Assembly (NCBI GenBank): GCA_947589535.1
Contig: CANQAS010000008.1
Location: 1 to 33,560 of the forward strand
Source of the DNA: an uncultured Bacilli bacterium
Lineage (GTDB): Bacteria; Bacillota_I; Bacilli_A; RF39; UBA660
Direction of reading: 5' to 3'
Length of the DNA stretch: 33,560 nt
Part shown: in pieces, positions 182 through 17,780 of the stretch
Position numbering within the stretch: the first letter of the stretch is position 1
Layout: every line of letters begins with the position of its first letter
Notes under the pieces: model-generated
The model's database searches: none
Told to the model about the DNA's origin: nothing
Seen by the model: only the letters and a program-made list of their open reading frames with translations
Made by a program: the position numbers and the translations under genes

Positions 182-601
182 CTACTTAATATAACCGTTT
201 GTTTTAAAAATTTCTATTGTATTTTCCTCAGATGTTTCTCCAACAATCCTATTTAACGTTGTTTCTTCTTCTCCGTTTGTTATAAAAGCAATGGTTGGAG
301 TTCCACTAATGTTTATATATGTTTTAAATTCATTAAATTCATCTTCGCTAAGTTTACTATTATCTAAATGATATATTGTTATTTTGTAATTCTTTAATAC
401 CTTATTTAGCGTTGGTTTATAAGATAAGCAATGAGAGCATCCTTCATTACCTATATATATAGCGAATGACTCTTTATTAGCAATCATTTCTTTAAAATCA
501 TCTAAACTTATTTCTTTCATATACTTATTATCACTAGAACATCCTGTTAAGCATAATATAAAAACAAACATAATAATCAAAATTTTTAATATCTTTTTCA
601 T
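182..601 (-). CDS. Thioredoxin-like lipoprotein
   Basis: Lipobox LTGC after a hydrophobic signal; GNEGCSHCLSYKP (CxxC) and cis-Pro-like SGTPTIAFI motif. Confidence 0.75.
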   Translation of the reverse strand: MKKILKILIIMFVFILCLTGCSSDNKYMKEISLDDFKEMIANKESFAIYIGNEGCSHCLSYKPTLNKVLKNYKITIYHLDNSKLSEDEFNEFKTYINISGTPTIAFITNGEEETTLNRIVGETSEENTIEIFKTNGYIK

Positions 602-701: not shown

Positions 702-1217
702 ATGTATATAACTGATAAAGATAGAAAAAATAAATATAAAAGGCTAAAAAAATATAAAGACAAAGATATTTATATTGAAAGTGATGCAATAGGTGAATTA
801 GAAAGTATATTTATAAAGTCTTTTAATGAAAAAAACTTAAATAGAAGATATGAAATTATATATGATTATATGTGTGGATACTTAGATAAAATATCAAAAG
901 ATGCATGTGATTTTAAATGTGATAAATGTATTTCTAACAGATTAAAAAAATCAGTGCATAAGACTTTCGGCTGTTGTTATTTTAGAAAAGAAGGTTTGTG
1001 TAAATATCTTGTGGATAAAAAATGTACAAGACCAAATATAACATGTAAATTATTTATGTGTGATTATGTTGAAAAGAAAATATTAGGGTATAAGTCATTG
1101 CCTAAAAACTATGTACTTTTTGATTTCTTTTTTAATAGAAAACAAAAAGAATTATTAAGAAGAAGTTTTAAAGTAAAAAAAGAAGATTTGTTATTAAAAT
1201 TAGTTGATAATGCTTAA
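702..1217 (+). CDS. Cysteine-rich protein of unknown function
   Basis: ORF with SD; about 10 Cys in a central block (MCGY, ACDFKCDKC, GCCYF, LCKY, KCTR, TCKLFMC); no signal peptide. Confidence 0.6.
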   Translation: MYITDKDRKNKYKRLKKYKDKDIYIESDAIGELESIFIKSFNEKNLNRRYEIIYDYMCGYLDKISKDACDFKCDKCISNRLKKSVHKTFGCCYFRKEGLCKYLVDKKCTRPNITCKLFMCDYVEKKILGYKSLPKNYVLFDFFFNRKQKELLRRSFKVKKEDLLLKLVDNA

Positions 1218-1254
1218 AAAAATGTTTATAATTATTTTAGTAGGAGAAAAAAAT

Positions 1255-2349
1255 ATGAAAAATATAATGGATTTTATAAAAGACAAGATATATTATATAT
1301 TCGCAGGAACAATAATATTAATAGTTTTATTAGTAATAATAAGTTCGTGTTCTAATAGTATAGGTAGAAACTATAATAATATTGAAAAAAAGATGATAGA
1401 AGCTGCTAGAAGCTATTATACAGCAAGGCAAGATAAACTTCCAAAAGAAGATGGTAGTTCAGTTAAAGTAACAATTGGTACATTAATAGATGCAGAACTA
1501 ATAAAAGAGATAAAAGATCCAAACAATAAAGAACAAACCTGTGATGGATTTGTTCAAGTTAAGTTAGTAGAAAATGATTATGCTTTTATACCATTCTTAA
1601 CCTGTAAGGGTAATTACGAACCTAAATACTTAACAGATGTAATAAAAGAATCAAAACAAGACGAATATGGTAATGGTGTTTATGAAATGAATGGTGAATA
1701 CGTTTACCGTGGAGATGACGTTAATAATTATGTTACTTTTAACAATCAAACTTGGCGAATAATAAAAGTTGATACTGATAATACAATAGAACTTATATAT
1801 TATCAAGATAGAAATAATAAGATGTACCAATGGGATACTGATTATAATTCAGAAATAGAAAGATATTATGGTGTAACAACTGATTATTTGCATAGTGATA
1901 TAAGAAAATCGTTGGTAGAATTTTACGATACTAATTTTACTAATGAATCAAAGGCTCATATAGTTGCTAAAAATATATGTATAGGTAAAAAAGCAATTGA
2001 TGCTAAAGAAAGTGCAGAGGAAGAATGCTCAGTTGTTAAAGAAAAAGAAAAAATAGGATTACTTAGAGTGTCTGATTATCCAAAGGCTAGTTTAGATTCT
2101 GGATGTATAAGTTATGATTCCGCAGAATGTAGTAATAGAAATTACTTTACTAATAGTTCTATAAATACTTGGACTTTAACAACGGTTTCTGATAATACTT
2201 ATGAAGCATATACTTTATATACTGGTGGTATTATGAAAAAAAGAGCTTCTAAATCAAATAGAATTAATCCAGTTATATACTTAGATAGTGATGTTATAAT
2301 TATAAGTGGAGATGGAACAGTAGATAATCCATATATAATAAAATATTGA
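1255..2349 (+). CDS. Membrane-anchored, pseudopilin-like surface protein
   Basis: SD taggaga before ATG 1255; N-terminal TM helix; pilin-like helix AARSYYTARQDKLP; ectodomain with several Cys. Confidence 0.55.
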   Translation: MKNIMDFIKDKIYYIFAGTIILIVLLVIISSCSNSIGRNYNNIEKKMIEAARSYYTARQDKLPKEDGSSVKVTIGTLIDAELIKEIKDPNNKEQTCDGFVQVKLVENDYAFIPFLTCKGNYEPKYLTDVIKESKQDEYGNGVYEMNGEYVYRGDDVNNYVTFNNQTWRIIKVDTDNTIELIYYQDRNNKMYQWDTDYNSEIERYYGVTTDYLHSDIRKSLVEFYDTNFTNESKAHIVAKNICIGKKAIDAKESAEEECSVVKEKEKIGLLRVSDYPKASLDSGCISYDSAECSNRNYFTNSSINTWTLTTVSDNTYEAYTLYTGGIMKKRASKSNRINPVIYLDSDVIIISGDGTVDNPYIIKY

Positions 2350-2374
2350 CAATTGTATAAAAAAAGTATAGAAT
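2346..2374 (+). promoter_or_regulatory. Strong promoter for the pilin gene
   Basis: TTGACA (2346-2351), 17-nt spacer, TAGAAT (2369-2374); the -35 overlaps the TGA stop of the preceding ORF. Confidence 0.65.
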
Positions 2375-2399
2375 TGAAATATATAATGAGGAGGTTATT

Positions 2400-2795
2400 A
2401 TGAGTAAAGTAACTATGTGGCTATTAGCTGGAGCCGCAAAAGGAACAACAGCAGCTGGAGGAAAAGCAAATGTAGTATCACTTGGTGCGGACTGTCCAGA
2501 TGAAATGCAAGCTATAGTAAATATTTTTAAATTTGCTTTAACAGCAATTCAATGGTTAGTTCCAATCTTGTTAATTTTATGGGGAACTATAGATTTAGTA
2601 AAAGCAGTAGTTGCAGGTAAAGAAGAAGATATTAAGAAAAACCAAAAAGCTTTAATAAAAAGAGTTATTTCTGCTGTTATAGTTTTCTTGTTACCACTTG
2701 CAGTAAGCATCTTAATGGGATTAATTGGAACTGAAGGATGGAAGACATGCTGGGATGGAGCAGAAGCTAAAATAGATTTAAATGATTTAAATTAG
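2400..2795 (+). CDS. VirB2/TrbC-like pilin-type protein
   Basis: 131 aa; two hydrophobic helices around a short charged loop (TIDLVKAVVAGKEEDIKKNQKALIKR), typical of VirB2-like pilins; first of the T4SS cluster. Confidence 0.65.
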   Translation: MSKVTMWLLAGAAKGTTAAGGKANVVSLGADCPDEMQAIVNIFKFALTAIQWLVPILLILWGTIDLVKAVVAGKEEDIKKNQKALIKRVISAVIVFLLPLAVSILMGLIGTEGWKTCWDGAEAKIDLNDLN

Positions 2796-2811
2796 ATAGC
2801 TAATATAAAAT

Positions 2812-2848
2812 CTTTTTAAGGTAATTTCCTTTAAAAGGTTTTTTTTTG
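2812..2848 (+). terminator. Intrinsic terminator after the pilin gene
   Basis: ctttttaagg-taattt-cctttaaaagg followed by a T run. Confidence 0.6.
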
Positions 2849-2902
2849 ATTAAAAAGATGTTATTATATATTATGTATAAATATATGGTAGAAGGTGTAA
2901 AC

Positions 2903-3685
2903 ATGAAAAAAAATATATTTACTTTATTATTAACTTTTATAATGATGTTTATTCCAGTTTTGGGTGTTAATGCTGATGATTCATTTGATGCTGGAGAATG
3001 TATTAAAGATTTTGGTTCAATAAAGTTAAAAGAAACTGGTAGCAATAATGATGCAGGTGGGAAAGTAGTATTTAAAAATAAGAAAAATAATAGTACTTGG
3101 AGTACAAAAACAGTTACGTTTGATGCAAAAGTAGAATCTACTACCGGACATAAAATTAAAACTATTGGTTATAGTATTAAATCAAAAGATGGATATTCTT
3201 GTACAGGGGTTGTTAAAGGTACTAGTATAGAAAACAATACAGGTCATGTTACGGTAAGTGTCACTATAGATAAAGGATACGTAAGTAAGATGGCATTTTG
3301 GGGAAAAAGCGTTAACAGAAATAATCCTTCAAAAGGGGATATGACAGAGTCAAATATTATAAATGTAAAAAGGGAAATGACTGAAGATGAATTAAAAGAA
3401 ATTGATGAGGAACTTGATATTACTACTGGTGAAACTCTTCAGTGTGATACATTAGATGATTTATTAGGTAAGTATTGGACTTGGGTTATGATTTTAATGC
3501 CTGTATTAACTTTACTACTTATGACTATAGATTTTGTTGGCGCAATGTTAGCAAGCGATTCAGACGCATTAAAAAAGGCAGGAAGCAAAGCATTTAAAAG
3601 AACTATTGCACTGGTAATATTACTATTATTACCTGTTATAATAAATTTACTATTTAAAATATTTAGTATAGAAACTTGTTTCTAG
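2903..3685 (+). CDS. Secreted ectodomain fused to a VirB2-like two-TM module
   Basis: Signal peptide MKKNIFTLLLTFIMMFIPVLGVNA; C-terminal TIDFVGAMLASDSDALKKAGSKAFKRTIALVILLLLPVIINLLFKIFSIETC parallels the 2400-2795 protein. Confidence 0.65.
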   Translation: MKKNIFTLLLTFIMMFIPVLGVNADDSFDAGECIKDFGSIKLKETGSNNDAGGKVVFKNKKNNSTWSTKTVTFDAKVESTTGHKIKTIGYSIKSKDGYSCTGVVKGTSIENNTGHVTVSVTIDKGYVSKMAFWGKSVNRNNPSKGDMTESNIINVKREMTEDELKEIDEELDITTGETLQCDTLDDLLGKYWTWVMILMPVLTLLLMTIDFVGAMLASDSDALKKAGSKAFKRTIALVILLLLPVIINLLFKIFSIETCF

Positions 3686-3694
3686 GAGGTTATT

Positions 3695-4780
3695 ATGAGT
3701 ACACTAATGGGTTGGCTAACAATTCCAAGAACTTTATTTTTATGGCTCGATACGATTGTATTTGCACTTATTGATGATGTATATGATTTATTTCAAATTT
3801 TTGCAAAAAACCAGATATTTAGTGATGATGCAGTTAGTGCTTTAATGAATAATATTTACGTTTTGGTAAGTTTGGTTGCGTTTTTTAGACTTGCTATGTT
3901 ACTTGTTAATGCAATAATAGACCCTGAAAAATTATTCGCTAAAAAAGAGGGCTTGGGAAATATATTTGGAAGAACTCTTATTATGCTTGTGTTATTAGTT
4001 ACTTCTCCTATAATATTTAATGCATTGGCAGAAATACAAGGTAAGATAGTAGATAACAATGTTATACCTAGGGTTATAATAGGTTCGAATGGATCTAATA
4101 ATATTGAAACAAAGAAAAACAGTAATTATTTTTCAAATGCAGGTAAAACAATGCAAAAAATTGTTATAACTACATTAATAAAACCAGAAGATGAATTCTT
4201 TATAGATGGTGAAGAAGGTGTTACAAACTATTTAAATGATAAGGCTATTGCAGATGATTCCAAACAAGGGCCAAAGGAATTAGTTGATCAAGGATACGTT
4301 GATACTAGTATATGTAAGAAAACATGTCAAAAAGCAATGGCACAATACCATCAAATGATTTCTCAAACATCTAAAGGTGGTTTTAAATTAAGAAGATTAC
4401 TTGGATATATTGGTGGATCTGCAGAGGTTCCACAAGAAGGCTCTAATGGTGATTCAGAAGATTTATATTATTATGAATACTATGCACTTATAACGACGAT
4501 AACAGGTGGATTTTTAACTTATGTTATGTTAAGTTGGAGTATTGATATTGCAGTTCGTTCAGTAGAACTTGCAGTATTACGTCTTATAAGCCCATTATTT
4601 ATTGCAACAATAGTTGATCCGAAATCAACTGCAAGTGGAGGATACTTTAATAACTGGCTTAAAAGGTATGGCAAGACATACGCAGATTTATTCTTAAAAT
4701 TAGCAATTATATCTTTAGCAATACTAATGATTTCATTAATACAAGATGCTGATATATGGAATACAGTAACAGGAGGTTAG
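3695..4780 (+). CDS. VirB6/TrbL-like polytopic membrane protein, N-terminal part
   Basis: Multiple TM segments with RSVELAVLRLISPLFIATIVDPKS and GGYFNNWLKRYGKTYADLFLKLAIISLAI, typical of Gram-positive VirB6-like proteins. Confidence 0.7.
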   Translation: MSTLMGWLTIPRTLFLWLDTIVFALIDDVYDLFQIFAKNQIFSDDAVSALMNNIYVLVSLVAFFRLAMLLVNAIIDPEKLFAKKEGLGNIFGRTLIMLVLLVTSPIIFNALAEIQGKIVDNNVIPRVIIGSNGSNNIETKKNSNYFSNAGKTMQKIVITTLIKPEDEFFIDGEEGVTNYLNDKAIADDSKQGPKELVDQGYVDTSICKKTCQKAMAQYHQMISQTSKGGFKLRRLLGYIGGSAEVPQEGSNGDSEDLYYYEYYALITTITGGFLTYVMLSWSIDIAVRSVELAVLRLISPLFIATIVDPKSTASGGYFNNWLKRYGKTYADLFLKLAIISLAILMISLIQDADIWNTVTGG

Positions 4781-4784
4781 GATT

Positions 4785-6044
4785 ATGACTAGATTAATTA
4801 GAATATTTCTATTATATGCAATATTAATATTTGCAAAAAAAGCACCTAAGATGATCACTGATCTTCTTAATATTAAGAGCGAGGGTATAGGTCTTAAAGG
4901 ATTAAATATTAAAAATAAGATGGGTGAAGCTGCCATTGTTGGTGGTGCTGTTAAAAAAGGAATGTCTGTAGTTCATGGTAAAGTAAGACAAGGGGCTGTT
5001 GGGTTTGCTTCTGGTTATTTAAATGGTAAGGGAAACCCATTAAAAAAAGATGGTATTAAAAGTAGATTAAAGAGTGCAGGAAAAGGTTTAGCTACAGGTT
5101 TTGCAAACGGTGGAGCTGCTGCTGCTGAAAATCTAAAGAATGGTAGAGATGGACTTGAAGGTTTAGCTAAAAGCATTTGGACTAATACAAAAGAGGCCAC
5201 TAGAGGAAAAGAACCTACTTTTTTAGAAAGAATTGGAGCAAAATTTGATTCTTTAACTGCCAACATAGGCTCATTAGGTTTTTCTGGTCTTGATCAAGCT
5301 CGTGCTGGTGAAATGAAAGAAATGCAAAATAATCTAGGAAAAAAAGTTGGTAAGGAAGAAGCAATTAAGATTGTTTCAATGCTAAATCACAAACATAATG
5401 TAAATGGAAGAATTGATTTTCATAACGATGAAGAATTTGAAAGATATAAAAAAGATTTGAAGGCTATTACAGAGGCATATTCCGCTGATAAAATGTATGA
5501 TATCTTATTTGACATGAGTAGTGTTACAGACCCTTCTGGAGCTTTAATTGGTAATGCTGGAGGATTAGCAGCTATGGATGCTTATGCTTCTAGAGATCGA
5601 TTGAGTTTTGCTACGAATGCTATGGATTATATAGATGTTGATGAAATAGACAAGAAAGGGTCTAGTTTATTGTTTAGAAAAGATCTTTTAGTAGAAAGAG
5701 GAAAAGCTTTAGATAAAATTAATACTGAATGGCAGAGTTATTTGGAAATGCAACAGGCAGATCCAAATAATACGGTAAAATTACAAGAGCGATTAGTTAA
5801 AGTTCAAAAAGCTATTAAATCCGCTGATGATTCAGGCGTATTTAATGAAAAGTATGGTGTTGATGCTTTAAATTTATCATTGGATGTTACTACAGATCCT
5901 ACAACTGGGGCAACTACTTATGGAGTAGGTAATTTAGGTGATATTGGTGGATATATATTAACTAATAATAAAAAGATTAAAGGTGTTGAAAACGATATAG
6001 CAAGAATGCAAACAGTAGAACCTAAAAAGTCTGATGATAAATAA
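4785..6044 (+). CDS. VirB6-like C-terminal part: one TM plus a long cytoplasmic domain
   Basis: Starts MTRLIRIFLLYAILIFAKKAPKMITDLLNI, like the last helix of VirB6-type proteins, then a Gly/Ala/Lys-rich region; SD aggagg overlaps the end of the preceding ORF. Confidence 0.6.
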   Translation: MTRLIRIFLLYAILIFAKKAPKMITDLLNIKSEGIGLKGLNIKNKMGEAAIVGGAVKKGMSVVHGKVRQGAVGFASGYLNGKGNPLKKDGIKSRLKSAGKGLATGFANGGAAAAENLKNGRDGLEGLAKSIWTNTKEATRGKEPTFLERIGAKFDSLTANIGSLGFSGLDQARAGEMKEMQNNLGKKVGKEEAIKIVSMLNHKHNVNGRIDFHNDEEFERYKKDLKAITEAYSADKMYDILFDMSSVTDPSGALIGNAGGLAAMDAYASRDRLSFATNAMDYIDVDEIDKKGSSLLFRKDLLVERGKALDKINTEWQSYLEMQQADPNNTVKLQERLVKVQKAIKSADDSGVFNEKYGVDALNLSLDVTTDPTTGATTYGVGNLGDIGGYILTNNKKIKGVENDIARMQTVEPKKSDDK

Positions 6045-6061
6045 TGGAAAGGGGAATATAG

Positions 6062-6379
6062 ATGGAAGGAAATTATTTGATACCTGCGAACTCTAAGAGA
6101 GCGCAACTAATATTTAATATATTTAGGCCGGTGGATTTAACTATTGCTTCTGTTGGAGCGGCTATAACGATTATATTATTTATTATAGTTCAGCCACAAA
6201 CTCTATTATGGGCAATAGTTGTATTGCTACCGATACTAATATGTGCATTTTTGGTAATACCAGTACCAAATTATCACAATATGCTGTGTGTACTTCAAAA
6301 TATATATAAGTATTACTTTGAAGAAAGACAACAGTTTAAATGGAAGGGATGGTGTGTGAAAGATGAGTTCAAAGACTAA
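6062..6379 (+). CDS. VirB3/PrgI-like small membrane protein
   Basis: 105 aa; N-terminal IPANSKRAQLIFNIFRPVDL, two TM helices, lies directly before VirB4. Confidence 0.7.
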   Translation: MEGNYLIPANSKRAQLIFNIFRPVDLTIASVGAAITIILFIIVQPQTLLWAIVVLLPILICAFLVIPVPNYHNMLCVLQNIYKYYFEERQQFKWKGWCVKDEFKD

Positions 6380-6914
6380 AAATACTAGCGCTAGTACTGA
6401 AAGTTTTATTCCTATTAAGACTATTATTAATAATATGATAGAGCTTGATGATGGAAATAAGGTTGCTGGAGTTAAGGTTTTTCCAAAGAATATATTTATT
6501 CTTGAAGAGTATGAACAGTTTAATGTAATTGATAATTTAAAGAATTTATATAATACTTTAGATTTTGAATTTTGGCTAGTTGTTACTGATAGACCTGTTG
6601 ATATAGCTGTTTATATAGCACAGCTTCAGTCACAGTTTAATAGTACTCAAAGTTCTTTAGCTAGAAAGTTAATCAGCCAAGATTTGCAAAAGGCAAGACA
6701 GTTTATTAATAATGATGTAACTGATGTTGAATTTTATATTTTATTTAAAGAAAAGGATGTTTCACTACTCCAAAAGAGAGTTAGACTTGTAATTAATGGT
6801 TTAGCTCAATCTGGTTTAGCATCTGCTCAGGCTAATAATGATGATTTAAGAATGCTTCTTGAAAGTTTCTTAAATGGTGGCCAAAATACTGAATTTGGGA
6901 CGGTGTTATCATGA
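6363..6914 (+). CDS. VirB4/TraC-like N-terminal domain protein
   Basis: IPIKTIINNMIELDDGNKVAGVKVFP motif; overlaps the VirB4 ATPase ORF at 6911-6914. Confidence 0.7.
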   Translation: MSSKTKNTSASTESFIPIKTIINNMIELDDGNKVAGVKVFPKNIFILEEYEQFNVIDNLKNLYNTLDFEFWLVVTDRPVDIAVYIAQLQSQFNSTQSSLARKLISQDLQKARQFINNDVTDVEFYILFKEKDVSLLQKRVRLVINGLAQSGLASAQANNDDLRMLLESFLNGGQNTEFGTVLS

Positions 6915-8701
6915 TGAATATTAAAAAAGAATTAGCGCCTAAGGGGCTAGAATTTAAACCATCTGAGTTTATTATTAGTGACAAATGGTGTACGATTTTA
7001 ACGGTTGTATCTTATCCAAAATATATTCAACCTGGTTTTTTAGCAAGTATAACTAGTAATGCTGGTGTAAAAATAGTTATTAAACACATACCGCTTCCTT
7101 TTTCTATTATGTCTAAGATGCTTAATAAACAGTTAGCAGAGTTAAAGGCTGAGTACGAAAAGGAAAATGATAAAACAGCACAAGAGCAGATAAGACAAGA
7201 TTATGATTCATTAAACGAATTTATCCAAATGATAACTGCAAATCAATCAAAGATTTTTGATTTCCAAATGCATGTCGTAGTAACTGCTAATACCAAGGAA
7301 GAATTAGATCAAAAGAAATTGCAGATTAAAAACTATTTAGAGGCTATGGAATTAAGAGCAATTCCTTTAAGATTTGAACAAAAGAAAGTGTTAAAGTCCA
7401 TAATACCAATCTTTCCAAAACAAGATATAGAAGATCAAATAGGTACTCCTATTACTTCTAATACTATTGCTGCCATGTATCCATTTATATTCGATAGTTT
7501 AAAAGATCCAGGTTTATCTTGTTTATTTGGTATAGATTTTTCTGGTGGTGTAGTATTATTCAACCAATTCTTATATCAAATAAGAAAAGAACATAATAGA
7601 AATAACGCTAATATGATTATTCTTGGTACATCAGGATCTGGTAAATCAACAGCTGCTAAATTACTTCTTAGAACTCATATAAGAAATGGTTGTAAGATAG
7701 TTGCAATTGACCCAGAAGGTGAACTTGATGAAATGACCAAGAAAATGCAAGGTGATTTCATTGATCTTGGTAAAGGTGGAGAATTCGGTATGATTAATCC
7801 ACTAGAAGTTATTCTTGAAGCTGATGATGAGGAATTAAAAGAAGGATTAGGATATACAGTATTAACTAAAACTTTGCAATTTTTAAAAGCATTTATGAAG
7901 TATTATGATCCATCAATAACTGAAGATGTACTTACTATGTTTAGTGAAATAGCGCAGTTAACATATCAAAGATTTGGTATATCTTTTGAAACTGATTTTT
8001 CTAATTTATCTTCAGCACAATATCCAACTTTTTCAGATTTATATGAAACATTAGCAAGAAGATTAGAAGCTTATGGTGATCAAATGACTCATGAAAGGGA
8101 TATCTTGGAAAAATTGGAATTAAAGATAAGACCTTTAGTAAAAGAATTAAAGTTCTATTTCGACGGACATACAACAATTACTACTAGAAGTAATTTTATA
8201 GTATTTAATATTAGGGATTTAATGAACGCGGATGAAAATATTAGAAATGCTTTATTCTTTAACGTGTTAAAATACGCATGGAGTCATTGTTTAGATAAGA
8301 CTGTAAATTCTATTATGTATGTTGATGAAGCTCATATTTTATTATCTGGCAATAACACTATAGGAGCCGATTTCTTAGCACAAATTCAAAGACGTGCTCG
8401 TAAGTATAATAGTGGTACAATTCTTATAACACAACAACCTAGTGACTTTGCTTCCCAATCATTAATTGTTCAAGGTAAGGCAATATTTGATAATGCTTCT
8501 TATTATTTAATAATGGGATTAAAAAAACAAGCAGCAGAAGATTTAGCACAATTAATTGATTTAAATGAACAAGAAAAGGATAGTATTAAAAAGTATAATC
8601 AGGGTGAAGCTTTATTCGTTTGTGGTAGTAGAAGAATGAGAATAGATGTAATTCTAACCGAACCTGAATTAGATTCATTCGGTTCTGGTGGAGGTCTATA
8701 A
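6911..8701 (+). CDS. virB4: VirB4-like T4SS ATPase
   Basis: Walker A GTSGSGKST; Walker B-like SIMYVDEAH; FLAQIQRRARKYNSGTILITQQPSDF. Confidence 0.9.
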   Translation: MMNIKKELAPKGLEFKPSEFIISDKWCTILTVVSYPKYIQPGFLASITSNAGVKIVIKHIPLPFSIMSKMLNKQLAELKAEYEKENDKTAQEQIRQDYDSLNEFIQMITANQSKIFDFQMHVVVTANTKEELDQKKLQIKNYLEAMELRAIPLRFEQKKVLKSIIPIFPKQDIEDQIGTPITSNTIAAMYPFIFDSLKDPGLSCLFGIDFSGGVVLFNQFLYQIRKEHNRNNANMIILGTSGSGKSTAAKLLLRTHIRNGCKIVAIDPEGELDEMTKKMQGDFIDLGKGGEFGMINPLEVILEADDEELKEGLGYTVLTKTLQFLKAFMKYYDPSITEDVLTMFSEIAQLTYQRFGISFETDFSNLSSAQYPTFSDLYETLARRLEAYGDQMTHERDILEKLELKIRPLVKELKFYFDGHTTITTRSNFIVFNIRDLMNADENIRNALFFNVLKYAWSHCLDKTVNSIMYVDEAHILLSGNNTIGADFLAQIQRRARKYNSGTILITQQPSDFASQSLIVQGKAIFDNASYYLIMGLKKQAAEDLAQLIDLNEQEKDSIKKYNQGEALFVCGSRRMRIDVILTEPELDSFGSGGGL

Positions 8702-8719
8702 TACAAAGGAGTAAAAGTT

Positions 8720-9073
8720 ATGAATAGATACGAAGTACAAGATAGAATAGATGAATTAGAAGATCTTATAAGTACTGAAACTGACCCAACAAGAAAGGCA
8801 GCTTTACAGAAAATGAAAGATGATTATGAAGTTCAATTAAGAGAACTTGACATGGATTCTAATAATAGAACTAAAGGACAGAAAATAGGCGCTGGATTAG
8901 GTAGGCTTAGTGGTATGGTTGTTGGATTAGTTGCTGGTGAATTAGAAAGTTGTGTAACTGGAAAAGATATTAAAAAGACTAGGGGAAAATATGCTGATGG
9001 CGGTGAGTCAATTGGTAGTGCTATTGGTGGAATAGCAGAAAGATTGATTGATGCTAGAAGGAGAAGAAAATGA
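8720..9073 (+). CDS. Small protein with coiled-coil N-terminus and glycine-rich segment
   Basis: SD aaaggag; N-terminal charged helix, then GAGLGRLSGMVVGLVAGE. Confidence 0.55.
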   Translation: MNRYEVQDRIDELEDLISTETDPTRKAALQKMKDDYEVQLRELDMDSNNRTKGQKIGAGLGRLSGMVVGLVAGELESCVTGKDIKKTRGKYADGGESIGSAIGGIAERLIDARRRRK

Positions 9074-9345
9074 AAACGAATGAGTTTTTGTTGATAAGAG
9101 ATAATATTCCAGTTAAATGTAGTGCTTTATCAGTATTATATTCAGAAGATAGTAACAGAGGTTTTGTAGCTTACTTTGATGGTACATTTTCTTCTGGTAA
9201 ACCAGTTTTAAAATTTGGTGAGATAAAAACTGAAAATGATGATATAATAATTGAAAATTTATCAGATGAAGAGGAATTAAAAGAGGTATATAAACAATTT
9301 ATTGATATCTATAAAAAGGCAATTATAGAATTGGAGAGTGAATAA
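9070..9345 (+). CDS. Small protein, possibly DUF1292-like
   Basis: ATGA overlap with the preceding ORF; same size and strand pattern as the 9822-10085 protein. Confidence 0.5.
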   Translation: MKTNEFLLIRDNIPVKCSALSVLYSEDSNRGFVAYFDGTFSSGKPVLKFGEIKTENDDIIIENLSDEEELKEVYKQFIDIYKKAIIELESE

Positions 9346-9346
9346 T

Positions 9347-9820
9347 ATGCCAGAAAATGTTATGATGATAGAGGAAAATAGAAGTTTTGTTGAGAAAGCA
9401 AAGCAAAAAATGCAAGAAATTAGAACTTCTTATAAAGAAAAATTTATTGATACAGGAAAGTCTCAACAACTAGAAGAAGAAATAGAAAAGAAGGCTAAAA
9501 GAAAAAAGAAAACCATAAAGGTTTTAGGCAGGCTTGCAACTATAGCACTTGCAATTTGTCCAGCAGATGGTCCTTTTGGTGAAATATGTACAGCTCTTGC
9601 AACACCAGGATTATGTGCGTTAGTAGATATTTCGACAGAAATTCAAAAAAAAGCATTAATAACTGGAAAACGTGCTGCTGAAAAATACGTTTTAAAAGTA
9701 GATGGAAGTAATGGTAACGTTGCTGGTTACAATCTAAATAATAACGAAATAATAGAAGATATAGATAGCTTAAAATCTGCTATAAATGATTTATCTGAAT
9801 CGAAGGGTATGTGTGCATAG
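9347..9820 (+). CDS. Hypothetical protein embedded in the T4SS cluster
   Basis: Tight coupling to neighbours; K/E-rich N-terminal helix and hydrophobic Cys-containing middle. ATG 9347 preferred over GTG 9338. Confidence 0.55.
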   Translation: MPENVMMIEENRSFVEKAKQKMQEIRTSYKEKFIDTGKSQQLEEEIEKKAKRKKKTIKVLGRLATIALAICPADGPFGEICTALATPGLCALVDISTEIQKKALITGKRAAEKYVLKVDGSNGNVAGYNLNNNEIIEDIDSLKSAINDLSESKGMCA

Positions 9821-9821
9821 T

Positions 9822-10085
9822 ATGAATAATTATGTTGTTGTAAAAAATGAAAATGGTGAAGATATAAAGATAGAAGTGATACTTAATTTTAGAGTGGAAG
9901 AATATAATAAAGAATATATTGCATACACCTTAAATGACGATGGAACTTCTGAAAGTGTGGCTGTATTTCTTTCTGAAATAGATCCAAACACTAAGAGATT
10001 ATTATCTATACCAGTAGAACAAAAAGATGCTGTTATGGAAGCCTATGAAGGAGCAAAATCATTAATATTAGAAGATGAAGAATAA
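9822..10085 (+). CDS. DUF1292 (YrzB-like) family protein
   Basis: VKNENGEDIKIEVILNFRVEEYNKEYIAYTLNDDGT...VAVFLSEID pattern. Confidence 0.65.
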   Translation: MNNYVVVKNENGEDIKIEVILNFRVEEYNKEYIAYTLNDDGTSESVAVFLSEIDPNTKRLLSIPVEQKDAVMEAYEGAKSLILEDEE

Positions 10086-10112
10086 AAATTGCACTAATGT
10101 GCGATTTTTTTA
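10084..10112 (+). terminator. Intrinsic terminator
   Basis: aaaattgcac-taat-gtgcgattttttt. Confidence 0.7.
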
Positions 10113-10140
10113 TAGCCTTGTAGTTTTTGTTGCTTAAATA

Positions 10141-10149
10141 TGTTATAAT
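10141..10149 (+). promoter_or_regulatory. Extended -10 promoter for the wall-hydrolase gene
   Basis: TGTTATAAT (TGn + TATAAT) 23 nt upstream of ATG 10172; no clear -35. Confidence 0.4.
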
Positions 10150-10171
10150 TTGTATAGTACGGTGGTTTATT

Positions 10172-13100
10172 ATGAAAGATCAAGAATTGAGAAAAAAAAT
10201 TGATAAAGAATTAAATAAGAATGTCACCCAAGGTCCACTTGAGATATTGGATGTTTCTGATGTAGATGATTCATCTTCAGGTTTAACTGGGGCTTCTTCA
10301 CCATACTCTCAAGATAATGATATGATGGACATATCAGATAATAATGATTTATCTAATAATACTAATAATTCACTAGAATCTGACTCTAATGATATAGGGG
10401 CAAGTGGTTCTGCAGATAATGGGTTAGAGAATGGTTCTAAAGCATACGGACGTAGTGACCAAGAAAGCGATGATTCACCAAAATCTGGTGGGGTTGATGA
10501 AACCTCAAAAGAAAAAGGCGATAGCGCAGCAAATGAAATAAAGAATATGTTTGATGATAACAAGAATAAGAAATTAGAAAAACATGACGCTATAGATTCT
10601 GGACTAAAAAATGATAAACCATATGTTCCTGAAAACGTGAAAGATGCTGCAAAGGATCTAAAAGATAAAGCCCAACCAATTATTGATGATGCAAAAGAAA
10701 AATTAAATGAAGTTAAAGAACAGGGAAAAGATGCTGCAGCAAAAGCAGGCGGTAAGGCTATTCAAACTTTATCTAAAGGCGTAATACCTTCAAAAGTCGG
10801 AGAATGGGCAACTAAAAAAGTACTTGATAATACTGAAAAAAAAATAAAGAAAAAAGCACATGCTTTAGGAAATAATATAAAAAACCAAGCATCAAATTTA
10901 AAAGATAAAATTGATGATAACGAACACGTTCAAAAAGCAAAACAAACGGCTGGAAAAGCAGTAAAAGCTGGAGCAAAAGCTATTAAGACTGTTAAGACTC
11001 TTGATTTTATAAGAAAATGGGGTCCTGTTATATTAGCAGGTATTGCAGTACTTCTTGTAATAGCTTCATTTTGCGTAGCAGCAGAATTAATAGCATCATA
11101 TTTACCAGGAGTCTTTGGTGATGTCAAAAAAATAGAAGAAGATTCGACTGGTGCATATACCAAAAGAGATATTAAGATTCTTGATAACATCGAGGAAATA
11201 GTGGATAAATATCCAGCGGTATCAACAGATAAAGCAGCATATGTTATGGCAACAGTATCATATCCTTACCATGTATTATTACAAGGAGACAATGCTAAAT
11301 CCTTAGCAGGAAAAGAAGAATCAGAAGATGAAGAAACAGATAGTTATGAACTTCTATTTGAACCGGATAATGAGTTAACTGCAAAGGAAAAATACGAAAA
11401 ATATAAATTGGTATTTGCAAGTGGTTTAGAAGCTGGAAAAGAAGTAATTGAGTCTGAATTTAAAGAGTGGTTAGCTGATAAGTTTGGATATGAACCTTCT
11501 GAAGATGATGACGAAGATGAAGAAGATGGAAAAATATATAATGATATATATTTAACTATGTACAAAAAAGATAAATATTTAGAAAAATTTGATCAATTAA
11601 TGAAAGTTTATAATGATAATGGAGAGGATGGTTTTAATCAATATTTAATAGATGAATATTATGATGAGGACGATGGATATAAATCATTATTAGAAGTAAA
11701 TGATGATGTTAAAGAAGAATTAATTAATGACATTCAAAAAGACGTATCAGAAAATGCAGATTTATACAAAAATTATATTCCACTTAGAAAATGTTCAAGA
11801 AGTTCTTGGCTTACCTCGTTAGGTACTAAGGATACAGGAAACTATTTTGCAAATGATTTATATGTTACTTTAAGAGATTATAGAGATACTAATGGAACAT
11901 TTATTAAAGAAGATTATTATGCAGCCCCTGTATTATATGGAACCGATACAGAGCCACTTACTTTCAAAAGATATATAATGGGTGTTATGTATGCTGAATT
12001 ATCTTCATGCGTTGATAATGAAGTTTGTGCTAAAACATTTATGATTACTGCAAAAAGCTATACATTAGGAAGACAAAGCAGATATGATACTGAATATTTA
12101 GATGATAAGACTATTCTTCACATGAGAGGTAATGTAGGGGATCAAGACTTTTGTGATATTTATGAAGGATGTCAAAGTGGTAGATTTTCTAAAGAAACTT
12201 GGACGGTAACTGGTGAAGGTAGTAAAAGTACTAAGCCTGCTGCATCTCAAGAACAGATTGCTAAACTTGAAGAGTGGTGGGATGATGTATCTGATGAGTA
12301 TCTAATGACTAGCGAAGGAGCTTTTGTTGGACCACATTATAGTAATTATAATGATAACTGTAAAAAAGGAAGCTGTTTATCACAAACTGATTTAAGAGAT
12401 TCATCATTAAAAGAAAGTGATTATTTAAATTTATTATTTGATCCAAGTAAAGGTGGCTTTGATGATACTAATTATGTATTATATAAATCAAGCGATAGTA
12501 ATGTATATGCAGCAGGTTTAAGTGAAGATCTTAATTGTGTTTCAAATGAATGTGGTGTTTCGCCAACAAGAGATGGTGTTGTAACTTATGCAAGAAGCTT
12601 GGTAGGTAAAATAAAATACTACTTTGGTGGTAAGCCAAACAGTAAAAATTTTGAAGAAAATGACTTTGGAACAACAGTTGCACCAGATTCTACTCAAGGA
12701 AGAACTATAAGAGGTTTAGATTGTTCTGGTTTTGTTGATTTTGTATTCTGGCATGTAATGGATGAAAACTTTGGTAATGGTAATACTTCTGAGATAAGAG
12801 ATGTTTATTCAGAAAAAATAAGTTATGATGATTTAAAACCTGGCGATTTAGGATTTTTGGATATGACTGGATCAGGTACTAATCAACACGTAGGAATATA
12901 CGCAGGTAAAGATGAAGATGGTAATGATATATGGATAGATTGTAATCCTAATGGTGTACAAGAACGTAATACTAGTATATTTAAAGTATATTTTAGACCA
13001 AAAATATTTGAAGAAACTGATAATTCTAATACCAATATCTGTGAGAGTGATGGAGCTACGGAAAGAGTTTGCAAAAAGTATAATTTATCTGATTCTGAAT

Positions 13101-14077
13101 TAGCAGGATTAGCTGGAATAGCATATAAGGAACAAGGTTCACCTGAAGGGGCTAAGGCTGAAGCTTCTCTTATGGCCAATAAATATGAATTAGATAATAG
13201 TTCTAAAACGTTATATAATTATGTCAATGATAGCGGTTGGTGGGCATCAGCTAGTAAAGGTTCAACAACTAATAACAAGGAAGTTCTTGATGCGGTAAAA
13301 GATGCATTAGTAAATGGTAATAGATCATTTCCATCATATGTTAATGAGCATGATTGTATTTCTTGTGGTACATATGGATTTGATATTATCAAACTTGTAG
13401 TTGGAAATAAAACTTATACTAGTTCAGAAGATTTATTAAATCATGATAACTATAAAAAAGATCAAACCGTTATATATAATAAATATGGTTCAAAGTATAC
13501 ATTTTATTCTTTCCCAACCAAGGGTAGCGATCCATTTGGCTATACAAGTAAAAAAAAGGATACATGTAAGAGTGTATCGGCAGCAAATTCTGATGGTGTC
13601 GTAACAACTAAATCAACGGATTTAAGAGGTTCTAAATTTTATGCTCCAGTCCAGAAAAAACTAACGATGTATGGATACGAAAATGGTGTTAGACACGACT
13701 TAGCCGCTGATTGTGGTAGTCCACTTTATGCACCTGCAAGTGGTACAGCAACATATAAAACAATAACAAAAAATGGTAAAGTAGCTAGTTATGGTAATGT
13801 AATTTACATTAAAACAACTGATGGTTATGAAATAAGGCTAGGACATTTACAATCTTTTGAAGCATATAAAGTCAAATTTGGTATTGGTGCTAATTATCCT
13901 TCATCTTGTAAAGGCGGTAGATGTAATACTTATACCTACGGAAGTAAAGCTGTTAAAGAAGGTGAACTTCTAGGATACACAGGAACAAGTGGTAATTCAA
14001 CAGGTTGCCATTTACATATTGAATTAAGAAATTCAAGTGGCACTAGATTAAATCCACCAAGTTATTTTGGTTATTAA
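10172..14077 (+). CDS. VirB1-like multidomain cell-wall-remodelling membrane protein
   Basis: Acidic then Lys-rich cytoplasmic tail; single TM (ILAGIAVLLVIASFCVAAELIA); SpoIID-like RYIMGVMYAELSS...DQDFCDIYEGC; NlpC/P60 LDCSGFVDF, LKPGDLGF, QHVGIYAG; SleB-like LAGIAYKEQGSPEGAKAEASLMANKYE; C-terminal M23-like with CHLHIEL. Confidence 0.85.
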   Translation: MKDQELRKKIDKELNKNVTQGPLEILDVSDVDDSSSGLTGASSPYSQDNDMMDISDNNDLSNNTNNSLESDSNDIGASGSADNGLENGSKAYGRSDQESDDSPKSGGVDETSKEKGDSAANEIKNMFDDNKNKKLEKHDAIDSGLKNDKPYVPENVKDAAKDLKDKAQPIIDDAKEKLNEVKEQGKDAAAKAGGKAIQTLSKGVIPSKVGEWATKKVLDNTEKKIKKKAHALGNNIKNQASNLKDKIDDNEHVQKAKQTAGKAVKAGAKAIKTVKTLDFIRKWGPVILAGIAVLLVIASFCVAAELIASYLPGVFGDVKKIEEDSTGAYTKRDIKILDNIEEIVDKYPAVSTDKAAYVMATVSYPYHVLLQGDNAKSLAGKEESEDEETDSYELLFEPDNELTAKEKYEKYKLVFASGLEAGKEVIESEFKEWLADKFGYEPSEDDDEDEEDGKIYNDIYLTMYKKDKYLEKFDQLMKVYNDNGEDGFNQYLIDEYYDEDDGYKSLLEVNDDVKEELINDIQKDVSENADLYKNYIPLRKCSRSSWLTSLGTKDTGNYFANDLYVTLRDYRDTNGTFIKEDYYAAPVLYGTDTEPLTFKRYIMGVMYAELSSCVDNEVCAKTFMITAKSYTLGRQSRYDTEYLDDKTILHMRGNVGDQDFCDIYEGCQSGRFSKETWTVTGEGSKSTKPAASQEQIAKLEEWWDDVSDEYLMTSEGAFVGPHYSNYNDNCKKGSCLSQTDLRDSSLKESDYLNLLFDPSKGGFDDTNYVLYKSSDSNVYAAGLSEDLNCVSNECGVSPTRDGVVTYARSLVGKIKYYFGGKPNSKNFEENDFGTTVAPDSTQGRTIRGLDCSGFVDFVFWHVMDENFGNGNTSEIRDVYSEKISYDDLKPGDLGFLDMTGSGTNQHVGIYAGKDEDGNDIWIDCNPNGVQERNTSIFKVYFRPKIFEETDNSNTNICESDGATERVCKKYNLSDSELAGLAGIAYKEQGSPEGAKAEASLMANKYELDNSSKTLYNYVNDSGWWASASKGSTTNNKEVLDAVKDALVNGNRSFPSYVNEHDCISCGTYGFDIIKLVVGNKTYTSSEDLLNHDNYKKDQTVIYNKYGSKYTFYSFPTKGSDPFGYTSKKKDTCKSVSAANSDGVVTTKSTDLRGSKFYAPVQKKLTMYGYENGVRHDLAADCGSPLYAPASGTATYKTITKNGKVASYGNVIYIKTTDGYEIRLGHLQSFEAYKVKFGIGANYPSSCKGGRCNTYTYGSKAVKEGELLGYTGTSGNSTGCHLHIELRNSSGTRLNPPSYFGY

Positions 14078-14088
14078 TGGGAGGAAAC

Positions 14089-14832
14089 ATGAATAAAATT
14101 AGATTAATATTAATATTATTTATTTTTACTATTATATTATCTGGATGTACTGCAACTGATACAGTAACTTTAAACGATGAAGGTAAAGTTACTGAATCAG
14201 TATCAATTATGGAAAGTAATTCAAATGTCTTGTATGGAAATAAAACGTTAAAGGAGTCAATTGAACAAACTTTATCAGAATATAGATCAGCTTTAAGTGT
14301 AAGAAAATATAAAACAAATATAAATATAAAAGCTGAAAAAAGTGGTGTTGTGGTAACCAATGAATTTGATGATTTTTGTAAATTTATAGATAACACTATT
14401 TTTAGTCAGTATATTTATAATCATATAAATTGTACTTCAGATAATGAATTTTATACTGTGGAAAGTGTTGGTGATTTTATAACACTTGATTCACATTATG
14501 TTGCTGATCCAATACCAGATATAATGAAAATAAAGTTAAATTTACCATTTTCCTTAACTGAAAATAATGCAGATGAGATTAATGATAATACATATACATG
14601 GATTTATGATAAAAATACAAATGCTTCTAAAACATTAAAATTTAAGGTAAATAAATCTGAAGTTGAAAGAATAAAAAAAGAGGCTATAGAAAAAAAGAAA
14701 AAAGAAGAATTTAAAAAGAAGATTATTAAAATAACATCAATAATTTTTGCAATATTATTATTTGTTGGGTTAGCATATGCTATTACTATTAGACTTTACA
14801 ATAAGATGCAAGAAAATAAATTAGATTATTAA
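14089..14832 (+). CDS. LppM-like lipoprotein with C-terminal TM
   Basis: Lipobox LSGC; TDTVTLNDEGKVTESVSI; LNLPFSLTENNADEINDNTYTWIYD; C-terminal TM helix. Confidence 0.6.
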   Translation: MNKIRLILILFIFTIILSGCTATDTVTLNDEGKVTESVSIMESNSNVLYGNKTLKESIEQTLSEYRSALSVRKYKTNINIKAEKSGVVVTNEFDDFCKFIDNTIFSQYIYNHINCTSDNEFYTVESVGDFITLDSHYVADPIPDIMKIKLNLPFSLTENNADEINDNTYTWIYDKNTNASKTLKFKVNKSEVERIKKEAIEKKKKEEFKKKIIKITSIIFAILLFVGLAYAITIRLYNKMQENKLDY

Positions 14833-14838
14833 TAAAAG

Positions 14839-14876
14839 TTATACCAAATATTTGTAATATTTGGTATAATATTTTT
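14839..14876 (+). terminator. Perfect 14-bp inverted repeat followed by a T-rich tract
   Basis: ttataccaaatatt-tgt-aatatttggtataa then tattttta. Confidence 0.65.
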
Positions 14877-14923
14877 ATATGTATAATAAGTAGTTAGTTA
14901 TATTGGGGTTAGGAGGCTTTAAT

Positions 14924-17458
14924 ATGAAGCTTAAATTTAGAGCGGATCGTAAGGATGCAATAGCTTTTTTATGGGCTAGTTTATTACTTTTAATAGTTGT
15001 TTCAATGTGTGTTAGAAATTTTTATCACGCAGCAACAACTGGAATAGGCGGAAGTACAACTGAATTTCGTTGGTCGTTTAACTTTTTATTAGGACTTTTA
15101 CCGCCATATTTGGGATATACAATTCTTTTTTGGATTCTTGCAATGGTTCTTTTAATCGCAAGTGTATCATCTCACTTTTTCACTAGAGAAAAAGGTTTTG
15201 GATTTAAAGAAGGAAAAGATGAAAAAGGTTTTGGTAGATTTGCAAAAGAATATGAGTATCAAGAGTTTGAAAACGTAAAACCCGTTGAATTAACCAGTGA
15301 AAAGTCAGATGCAGCCGGATTTCCTCTTTGTTATGATAAAAAGAAGAATTTAGTATATGTTGATAATGGTGAGGCACATTCACTTGTTATAGGTGCTACT
15401 GGTTCAGGTAAAACTCAAATGGTTATTAACCCTCTTGTTAATATTTTATCAAAGAAGGGTGAATCAATGGTTATTACTGATCCTAAGGGTGAGATATATG
15501 AAAAAAATGGAGAGATGTTAAGAGCTTTAGGATATGATGTTATAGTTGTTAATTTCCGAGATCCACAAAATGGTAGTTGTTGGAACCCTTATACATTACC
15601 ATATAAGTATTATAAGGAAGGTAATCAAGATAAGGCAAACGAGCTTTTAAACGACATGGCGATTAACATTGCAATAGATGAAAAAGCTGATGATCCTTTC
15701 TGGACTAATTCAGCAGCGGATTATTTAACAGGTTTATCACTTGGAATGTTTGAAGATGCTCCAGAAGATGAAATTAGTATATCAACAGTTAACTTAATGG
15801 TAACTGTAGGTGAAGAAAAGATTGGTGCATCAACGTATGCAAAAGAATATTTTAAAACTAAAGATCCTGCATCGCCAGCGGCAATTAATGCATTAGGTAC
15901 TGTTAATGCTCCACAGGATACTAAAAACTCAGTATTATCAGTATTAAAACAAAAGATAAAAGTATTTGCTGTTACTCAAAATTTGGCAGAAATGTTATCG
16001 CGTAGTGACTTTGATATGGAAACGATTGGAGAGAGAAAAACAGCTGTATTTATGATAATTCAGGATGAAAAAACTACGTACCATGCTTTGGCAACAATAT
16101 TTGTAAAACAATGTTATGAATCTTTAATAGCAGTTGCACAAAGGCATGGTGGAAAGCTTCCTGTTAGAACAAACTTTTTACTTGATGAGTTTGCTAATAT
16201 GCCTAAATTTAAAGATATTACTACAATGATAACAGCAGCTCGTTCAAGACAGATAAGAATGACAATGATCATTCAGAACTTTGCTCAATTAAATGATGTT
16301 TATGGTAAAGAAGATGCTGAAACAATTCGTGGTAACTGTGGAAATATTTTGTATTTGCTTACTGGAGAGTTATCGGCTCTAGAAGAAATAAGTAAACTAT
16401 GTGGTGATAAGATTGTTAAAGTAGGTAAAGATAAGAGAGAAGAAACGAGACCATTAATCACTGTTACAGAACTTCAAAGGTTTACAAATAATGAAGTTTT
16501 AGTGTTAAAACATAGACTTCCTCCGCTAAGAACAAAATTTTTACCTTTCTGGGATACGGACTTTGGACATGGTAAAAATAACGCTTCAATAACACAAGCA
16601 ACATATACAACCCGTGAAAAGCGAGAAATTAAATTATTTGATATAAGAGAATTTGTTAAGAAGAAAAAGGATGAAAAAAGAAATGAATTATTTGGTGGAG
16701 TTGGAAACAATCCATTTGGTGGCGGAGCAACTCCAAATCCATTTGGAGGACCAAGTACACCAAATCCATTCGGAGGACCAAGTACACCAAATCCATTTGG
16801 TGCTCCATCATCTCAAGGAACAAATCCATTAGCTCCTTTTGGTGCTACTACACCAGGCGTTAATCCAGATCCTTTAGCAGCTTATGGAAGTACTCAAAAT
16901 AGTACACCAAATCCATCGCCTTTTAATCCTACGACTCTAGGCTCTTCTCCTTCATCGCCAGATGATTTAAATATTGATGAAATGATGAAGAAAATTGATG
17001 AGCGAATAGCTGAATTAGAAGCAGAAGAAAAAGCAGAAAAAGAAGCAGAAGAAAGAGAAAAACTTGCTTCTGAAGAAAAGACTGTTGAAGAAATTAAAAC
17101 CGAATTAAATAACGATGATGTTAAACCAGAAATTATGAATGATGATACTAATTCTATTTCATCAGCTAGTGCTATTGTTTCACCATCTAATATAGATTTT
17201 AAATCTTTTATGTCTACTAATAAGGAAGAAGTAAAAGAAGAAAAGAATGAAACATTTGGATTATTGGATGAAATGGTAGAAGATTTATCATTTGATGAAC
17301 CTATAAATAAAACATCGGTTCCCGAAATGTCAACTGAAAATAATGCAATTAAGGAAGCAGAGATTATTAAGCCTCCAGATGAAAAAATAGAAAGTTTGGA
17401 TTTTGATTTAGATAAGTCTAAGAATGATGATGACTTATTTGATGAATTCTTTGATTAA
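14924..17458 (+). CDS. virD4: VirD4/TraG-type T4SS coupling protein
   Basis: SD aggagg before ATG 14924; N-terminal TM helices; Walker A GATGSGKTQMVINPL; VITDPKGEIYE; LLDEFANMPKF; RSRQIRMTMIIQNFAQL. Confidence 0.9.
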   Translation: MKLKFRADRKDAIAFLWASLLLLIVVSMCVRNFYHAATTGIGGSTTEFRWSFNFLLGLLPPYLGYTILFWILAMVLLIASVSSHFFTREKGFGFKEGKDEKGFGRFAKEYEYQEFENVKPVELTSEKSDAAGFPLCYDKKKNLVYVDNGEAHSLVIGATGSGKTQMVINPLVNILSKKGESMVITDPKGEIYEKNGEMLRALGYDVIVVNFRDPQNGSCWNPYTLPYKYYKEGNQDKANELLNDMAINIAIDEKADDPFWTNSAADYLTGLSLGMFEDAPEDEISISTVNLMVTVGEEKIGASTYAKEYFKTKDPASPAAINALGTVNAPQDTKNSVLSVLKQKIKVFAVTQNLAEMLSRSDFDMETIGERKTAVFMIIQDEKTTYHALATIFVKQCYESLIAVAQRHGGKLPVRTNFLLDEFANMPKFKDITTMITAARSRQIRMTMIIQNFAQLNDVYGKEDAETIRGNCGNILYLLTGELSALEEISKLCGDKIVKVGKDKREETRPLITVTELQRFTNNEVLVLKHRLPPLRTKFLPFWDTDFGHGKNNASITQATYTTREKREIKLFDIREFVKKKKDEKRNELFGGVGNNPFGGGATPNPFGGPSTPNPFGGPSTPNPFGAPSSQGTNPLAPFGATTPGVNPDPLAAYGSTQNSTPNPSPFNPTTLGSSPSSPDDLNIDEMMKKIDERIAELEAEEKAEKEAEEREKLASEEKTVEEIKTELNNDDVKPEIMNDDTNSISSASAIVSPSNIDFKSFMSTNKEEVKEEKNETFGLLDEMVEDLSFDEPINKTSVPEMSTENNAIKEAEIIKPPDEKIESLDFDLDKSKNDDDLFDEFFD
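16733..16807 (+). repeat. 27-nt in-frame tandem repeat (PNPFGGPST units) in virD4
   Basis: ccaaatccatttggaggaccaagtaca at 16733-16759, again at 16760-16786 with one substitution, partial third copy at 16787. Confidence 0.9.
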
Positions 17459-17487: not shown

Positions 17488-17510
17488 ATATACTATATTA
17501 GGTGATATTG

Positions 17511-17780
17511 ATGGAAATAGAATTTGTTGATACCAATAGTAATGTACCCATCATTGATATTAGGTATCCTAGTGATTATGATAGTTATCATATTAGTAAT
17601 ACAATAAATGTAACTAGAATTAATTTATTAAAAAATCCAGATATGTATTTGACTAAAGATAGAGAATATTATTTGCTATGTGATAAAGGTACTGTTAGTA
17701 AATCTTGTGCCAAAATATTAAATGCTCTAGGATATAATTGTAAGAGTATTAAAGGTGGTATTGAAAGTATAAAGAATTAG
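17511..17780 (+). CDS. Rhodanese-like domain protein
   Basis: PIIDIRYPSDYDSYHISNTINV and LLCDKGTVSKSCAKILNALGYNCKSIKGGIES. Confidence 0.8.
   Translation: MEIEFVDTNSNVPIIDIRYPSDYDSYHISNTINVTRINLLKNPDMYLTKDREYYLLCDKGTVSKSCAKILNALGYNCKSIKGGIESIKN

Follow-up and report, generated by a model that had tools for sequence, protein, structure and literature searches.

What does a type IV secretion system (T4SS) do in a genome in which no relaxase was found for it? The question is raised by a run of T4SS genes, all on one strand, at positions 702-17458 of the contig CANQAS010000008.1 from an uncultured Bacilli bacterium of UBA660, a family within the order RF39 (PMC13155120). The window, i.e. the whole stretch of DNA that was analysed, is the complete contig (G000:C8; 33,560 bases) and comes from a draft genome (G000) of 1.13 Mb and 95.7% completeness. 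A first-pass annotation had read VirB2-, VirB6-, VirB3-, VirB4-, VirB1- and VirD4-like genes in one orientation, and all of them were confirmed by family matches. VirB4, VirB6, PrgI/VirB3, VirD4 and a wall hydrolase share one locus, which makes this an MPF_FATA-type T4SS of monoderms. The annotation had considered a domesticated machine, a remnant of an integrative and conjugative element (ICE) and a relaxase encoded elsewhere; we conclude with high confidence that the locus is a domesticated chromosomal T4SS of the RF39/UBA660 lineage.

The distribution of the system carries this conclusion. VirB4 orthologs of 62-87% identity were found in 127 of 146 family genomes (75 genera sampled) and VirD4 in 132, the two occurring jointly in 126 genomes (Fisher p 3e-13); in 96 of these 126, VirD4 lay within 15 kb downstream of VirB4 on the same strand. 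An element-type VirB4 was the only copy in three more genomes, and 16 were without any VirB4 match; since six of the latter still have the core VirD4, part of the absence is due to assembly gaps. Outside the family, where the copies were divergent and of element type, no VirB4 above 36% identity was detected in a 298-genome sample of the class, except for one contig-edge fragment of 816 bases in a genome with 6% contamination. A core-type VirB4 fragment (76%) in the genome of another family (L181; G450:C99, 2617 bases) is probably a binning contaminant. Two hallmarks of a conjugative element are missing, as no intact relaxase was found with the T4SS and its presence is not sporadic, with VirB4 or VirD4 in 133/146 genomes. 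Among genomes that bear a name, the scan hit 'Bacillales bacterium UBA660', Candidatus Aphodocola, Candidatus Onthousia and Candidatus Coprosoma, which we take to belong to family UBA660 of the GTDB order RF39; Aphodocola and Onthousia are placed in Bacilli incertae sedis at NCBI.

Inheritance within the family was found to be vertical. In a tree confined to VirB4 sequences from ICEs and plasmids of Bacilli, the window-type VirB4 fell inside, and the core sequences formed a single clade (99/99 support) against 21 element-type sequences. Pairwise identity of VirB4 followed that of RmuC, a chromosomal neighbour (rho 0.76 over 38 loci; 0/300 permutations as high). The ratio of nonsynonymous to synonymous substitution rates (dN/dS) was about 0.03-0.06 for VirB4 and 0.07-0.08 for RmuC, indicating strong purifying selection on VirB4, and reached about 0.8 for the lipoprotein and 0.4-0.5 for VirB6, both fast-evolving parts; these ratios are rough because dS was high in the compared pairs. 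Genome G110, which is assembled as a single contig, has its TadC-like gene (see below), VirB4 and VirD4 dispersed at 77 kb, 698 kb and 742 kb, respectively, all of them intact.

The surroundings of the locus agree with a chromosomal setting. The ordinary chromosomal genes RmuC, ScpA, ScpB and MurC, which had already been named to the right of VirD4, were confirmed there, with a rhodanese gene interposed between VirD4 and RmuC. Where the sequence reached 3.5 kb or more to the right of VirD4 (35 loci), RmuC stood beside the locus in 22, and the synteny comparison that had been proposed as a check showed that related genomes keep the locus, without a relaxase, in the same gene neighbourhood, as expected of a domesticated machine. 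The left context had been reported as unknown. The first gene starts only about 180 bases from the contig end, and since the window is the entire contig, leftward extension is impossible. Near relatives nevertheless show a thioredoxin-like lipoprotein gene as the left flank, with no relaxase past it within the fetched flanks.

To follow the suggestion of a relaxase elsewhere, the window's genome was searched for MOBP (PF03432), MOBV (PF01076), MOBT (PF02486), MOBQ (PF03389) and the ICE relaxase of a congener, the classes MOBC, MOBF, MOBH, MOBM and MOBL lying outside these searches; no match was obtained, which makes such a relaxase unlikely at the given completeness. None of 100 core loci contained an intact relaxase, and the same search revealed one adjoining 16 of 22 element-type VirB4 loci (13 by homology and 3 by PF03432) within about 4 kb. 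An 86-amino acid relaxase fragment between rhodanese and RmuC in one core locus (L112:19607-19864) is likely the relic of a mobilizable element inserted beside it. A conjugation machine that moves mobilizable elements in trans could draw on the MOBV and MOBP relaxases present on unlinked contigs in 53/99 and 28/118 family genomes, respectively (MOBT, 1/99; MOBQ, 0/99). We consider this improbable, as many T4SS-bearing genomes are devoid of a relaxase just as the window's genome is, element-type T4SS loci keep theirs adjacent, and the near-universal machine does not track the relaxase distribution. The congener's ICE relaxase occurred in nine of the 146 genomes, seven of them with an element-type VirB4 and an eighth with an element-type VirD4. 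As noted before, no integrase, relaxase, replication or toxin-antitoxin gene was recognised among the window proteins. The lack of integrase and relaxase would fit a decaying ICE or a recent insertion, as would the split of VirB6 in this genome; near-universal vertical conservation across the family and purifying selection exclude an ICE remnant, and we give this explanation hardly any credence.

In relatives, the T4SS is joined by genes of a Tad pilus. Where 9 kb or more was available to the left of VirB4 (56 loci), 41 loci carried three or more Tad-type families directly upstream, comprising CpaB-, CpaF-, TadB-, TadC- and CpaE-like genes along with small prepilin-like genes; the latter have no family match and occupy the place expected for the Flp pilin and TadE/F. 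The TadC-like gene was present in 120/146 family genomes and, in 49 of the 55 cases sharing a contig with VirB4, lay no more than 20 kb upstream of it on the same strand. T4SS and TadC-like gene were associated (116/17 vs 4/9; Fisher p 2e-5, uncorrected for kinship). The upstream ATPase was assigned to CpaF/TadA by profile comparison (99.6%), with VirB11 as its best NCBIfam model; the VirB11 and CpaF/TadA families are close to each other. The former statement that no VirB11-like protein is recognisable holds for the window, but in most relatives a VirB11/TadA-family ATPase is encoded just upstream. TadB and TadC were assigned through the Bacillus thuringiensis conjugative plasmid pBMB68, in which the pair of genes that follows CpaF is matched by their profiles (4e-10 and 3e-11); Pfam, NCBIfam and profile comparison with a second Tad locus did not support these identities. 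For the TadB-like model, EpsF ranked first among PDB structures, with a probability of 0.84 but an E value of 2.5, and the CpaB match (2.5e-5) was under the cut-off.

The second Tad locus is an unlinked one in the window's genome, encoding TadE, TadF, CpaE, CpaF, TadB and TadC (L144; G000:C23, 389-4951), and loci resembling it occur in G022 and G114. The idea that its CpaF is the T4SS-linked gene moved elsewhere was rejected, as this CpaF belongs to a different Tad locus and shares only about 25-29% identity. In another Bacilli family, CpaF, TadC, VirB6, PrgI and VirB4 are followed by the VirB4 N-terminal part (L171; G203:C17:4000-21000), and no relaxase was detected across these 17 kb.

A possible source of the combined gene set is provided by mobile elements. 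Plasmid pBMB68 (NZ_CP010581) encodes a MobP3 relaxase, VirD4 (CD1115 family), TrbL/VirB6, PrgI, a VirB4 N-terminal part, a short VirB4 and NlpC/P60, and continues with CpaB, an AAA ATPase, CpaF and the TadB- and TadC-profile genes. It differs from the RF39 system in being plasmid-borne, with relaxase and recombinase, and its VirB4 is only about 30% identical. A similar Tad and T4SS set is found on the Mycoplasmatota plasmid CP074574. The VirB4 of neither plasmid was sister to the core clade, in a tree with several long branches. Nothing relevant on Tad genes of pBMB67-type plasmids was found in the open-access literature. Since the combination of Tad and T4SS pre-exists on mobile elements, the preferred reading of the RF39 machine is an element of this kind, captured once and stripped of its relaxase; an independent joining of the two parts is possible.

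Taken as a whole, the explanation we favour, with moderate confidence, is a captured Tad and T4SS element that lost its relaxase and was kept as a cell-contact export machine. According to this model, a conjugative element with Tad pilus and T4SS would have been captured by an ancestor, its relaxase would have been lost, and the machine would since have been inherited vertically. The membrane channel would consist of VirB4 and its separate N-terminal subunit together with PrgI and VirB6; the VirB2-like pilins and the multi-domain hydrolase would span the cell's own wall and possibly that of the partner, and VirD4 would recruit the substrate and feed it in. The linked Tad pilus of most relatives probably gives cell contact. 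Export of proteins into adjacent cells is the most likely activity, from which these nutrient-dependent bacteria would profit. Activity of the machine, export as its direction and protein as its cargo are inferred from sequence: the direction is suggested by the retention of VirD4 and by the separate presence of ComEC and a PilB-type ATPase, and the absence of a relaxase makes a protein cargo more likely. Protein export is proposed tentatively, at slightly less than even chances; that the lineage turned the machine into a tool acting on neighbouring cells is probable.

Several observations weigh against this explanation. Neither effectors nor their signals nor immunity genes were identified, and no VirB8 was recognised among the window proteins, as had been stated before. 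The window's genus is without linked Tad genes. About 9% of the family genomes (13 genomes) have neither VirB4 nor VirD4, and the machine is therefore dispensable in some members; the genomes compared are drafts, mostly metagenome-assembled. As VirD4 and VirB4 are members of conjugation-type families, DNA may still be the substrate. A domesticated DNA-exchange machine, transferring chromosomal DNA among kin that Tad pili draw together or exploiting that of neighbours as a nucleotide source, would have a model in the archaeal Ced and Ted systems, DNA importers built from VirB4, VirB6 and VirB2 homologs, which are themselves relaxase-less chromosomal derivatives of T4SSs; Ced is paired with a type IV pilus, Ups (PMC9905601). 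The Tad gene set in most relatives and the conjugation-type ATPases fit this idea, as does the reported lack of de novo nucleotide synthesis in RF39 (PMC13155120). VirD4, however, points to export, and the locus contains no nuclease or recombination gene. Moreover, ComEC was found in 89 of 99 and a PilB-type ATPase in 98 of 99 family genomes, both encoded separately and also where the T4SS is absent; the T4SS is thus not the sole route of DNA uptake, and a role as the only DNA-uptake pilus (ComB-like) was rejected as unlikely. Overall, DNA exchange is regarded as rather unlikely, though a more serious contender than a device acting mainly as a surface pilus or in adhesion, with no translocated substrate. 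The latter would account for the pilin arrays and the fast-evolving surface parts, but a coupling ATPase would then be superfluous, yet VirD4 is co-conserved with VirB4 and ATPase motifs are kept; we assign it little weight.

Among known systems, the RF39 machine most resembles a relaxase-less T4SS found in Patescibacteria, the Candidate Phyla Radiation (CPR), which is likewise chromosomal and lineage-wide, with an MPF_FATA-type VirB4 and a separate TrsD-like N-terminal subunit, PrgI, VirB6 and arrays of VirB2-like pilins and mostly with no recognisable VirB8 (PMC12102498). These, too, are host-dependent bacteria with reduced genomes that have kept ComEC, and one member cannot grow on its host without the T4SS (PMC12102498). 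RF39, in contrast, belongs to Bacillota and has VirD4 in the locus, an NlpC/P60-M23 hydrolase in the operon and a linked Tad set. Compared with Ced/Ted, the RF39 system adds VirD4, PrgI and wall hydrolases. Some Rickettsiales also keep their vir T4SS by vertical descent, with genes scattered over the chromosome (PMC12102498), but theirs is of the diderm MPF_T class with VirB7-B10. Finally, the ICE-type T4SS within the family, as in a congener of the window's species (G129), has homologs of VirB6, PrgI, VirB4, a CHAP hydrolase and VirD4, and differs by a relaxase between hydrolase and VirD4, by sporadic occurrence and by a fused VirB4 of about 780 amino acids with 32-35% identity. In that congener the ICE-type system, relaxase included, is separate (L155; G129:C4:5000-24999), and the reading frame of its VirB4 is disrupted, leaving two frames that overlap (8342-9694 and 9694-10707).

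The features of the locus are collected in Table 1. VirB4 is encoded by two genes in the window and has intact Walker motifs (GTSGSGKST and VDEAH); the smaller gene matches the N-terminus of the fused VirB4 in L041 as well as separate N-part genes beside a short VirB4. ATPase motifs are also retained in VirD4. The open reading frames (ORFs) had been described as intact, and this is true of the named genes apart from VirB6, which occupies two frames here and is a single gene in relatives, of about 560-950 amino acids with one exception of 389. As the downstream frame has its own AGGAGG-ATG, the split may reflect gene fission or a frameshift. The upstream frame matched the pLS20_p028 model at 8e-6, under its cut-off. 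Tandem pilin arrays are common in relatives, with a mean of 2.3 per locus and a maximum of 6. The hydrolase consists of a disordered cytosolic N-terminus, a transmembrane helix and NlpC/P60 and M23 domains. For the family matches, pilin b, the hydrolase and VirD4 were taken as 2846-3685, 10127-14077 and 14903-17458, respectively.

Table 1. Annotated features of the T4SS locus and its immediate neighbours (window coordinates).
Feature	Position	Strand	Evidence and occurrence
Thioredoxin-like lipoprotein, left neighbour outside the machine	182..601	-	Pfam Thioredoxin 1.4e-8; position kept in near relatives
Cys-rich protein of 171 amino acids	702..1217	+	No family; among fetched loci only in the window's species
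Membrane-anchored surface protein	1255..2349	+	In 30/100 loci; place within locus varies
VirB2-like pilin a	2400..2795	+	PF18895 T4SS_pilin 8.6e-6
VirB2-like pilin b, signal peptide and extra N-terminal domain	2903..3685	+	PF18895 weak (0.0022); clusters with pilin a
VirB6/TrbL-like channel protein, N-terminal part	3695..4780	+	NF045890 8.1e-6; TrbL_4 4.7e-4; cluster in 94/100 loci
VirB6 C-terminal part, own frame here	4785..6044	+	Fused with N-terminal part in relatives
PrgI/TcpE (VirB3-like) membrane protein	6062..6379	+	TcpE 0.0048; PrgI 0.015; cluster in 79/100 loci
VirB4 N-terminal part, separate TrsD-like gene	6363..6914	+	In 99/100 loci
VirB4 ATPase	6911..8701	+	NF045975 4e-105; PDB homolog 4ag5 (VirB4-like) 5e-66
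Four small ORFs	8720-9073, 9070-9345, 9338-9820, 9786-10085	+	Insertion between VirB4 and hydrolase, species-specific
Large VirB1-like wall hydrolase	10172..14077	+	NLPC_P60 4.6e-9; Peptidase_M23 8.9e-12
Lipoprotein, C-terminal transmembrane helix, fast evolving	14077..14832	+	77 copies across 58 loci
VirD4 coupling ATPase, low-complexity C-terminal tail	14924..17458	+	NF045973 1.1e-94 (over cut-off); T4SS-DNA_transf 1.2e-59
Rhodanese, conserved right neighbour	17502..17780	+	Pfam 1.1e-12; 53/100 loci
RmuC, chromosomal neighbour	18013..19083	+	Pfam 6.7e-56

For the surface protein, the predicted fold (AlphaFold pLDDT 87, pTM 0.80) comprises a long N-terminal helix, a small head domain and a beta-rich C-terminal domain, and its cysteines are conserved. 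The sole significant fold match was the IgA peptidase of Thomasclavelia ramosa; with a PDB match probability of 1.0 but a TM-score as low as 0.36, no function was claimed from it. The four small ORFs have no homologs among about 180 fetched loci; the last of them matches DUF1292 weakly, and glycine-rich hydrophobic stretches are present in two; they could represent two small cargo pairs. Between hydrolase and VirD4, other loci (L069, L071, L092, L100, L107, L118, L132 and others) carry pairs of small membrane-anchored proteins, C21 and C22, in 16 loci each and without family match, which look like VirB8/NTF2 candidates; a sequence search of solved structures with C21 returned no VirB8.

RF39 is an uncultivated order that is found in a large share of human gut metagenomes and is heavily auxotrophic, and how it acquires what it cannot synthesise is unknown (PMC6784871). 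In the RF39 papers searched, a T4SS is not mentioned. The lineage-wide extent of the system, the linked Tad genes and the proposed plasmid type of its ancestor are new beyond the first-pass annotation. A translocation machine that spans the lineage and is tied to no mobile element is a candidate mechanism for nutrient acquisition by RF39, and the order would be the second genome-reduced bacterial lineage, after Patescibacteria, to keep a relaxase-less monoderm T4SS, in this case in a Gram-positive with a wall. It becomes testable which cargo machines of this kind carry, be it DNA, proteins or nutrients, and conditions for co-culture are suggested. More speculatively, and in our view doubtfully, an entire order-level lineage of gut Bacilli with reduced genomes may have repurposed a Tad and T4SS conjugative element to exploit neighbouring cells on contact, either in convergence with the T4SS of epibiotic Patescibacteria or from the same stock. 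If this is true, RF39 bacteria would live as symbionts or predators that depend on contact with other cells of the gut.

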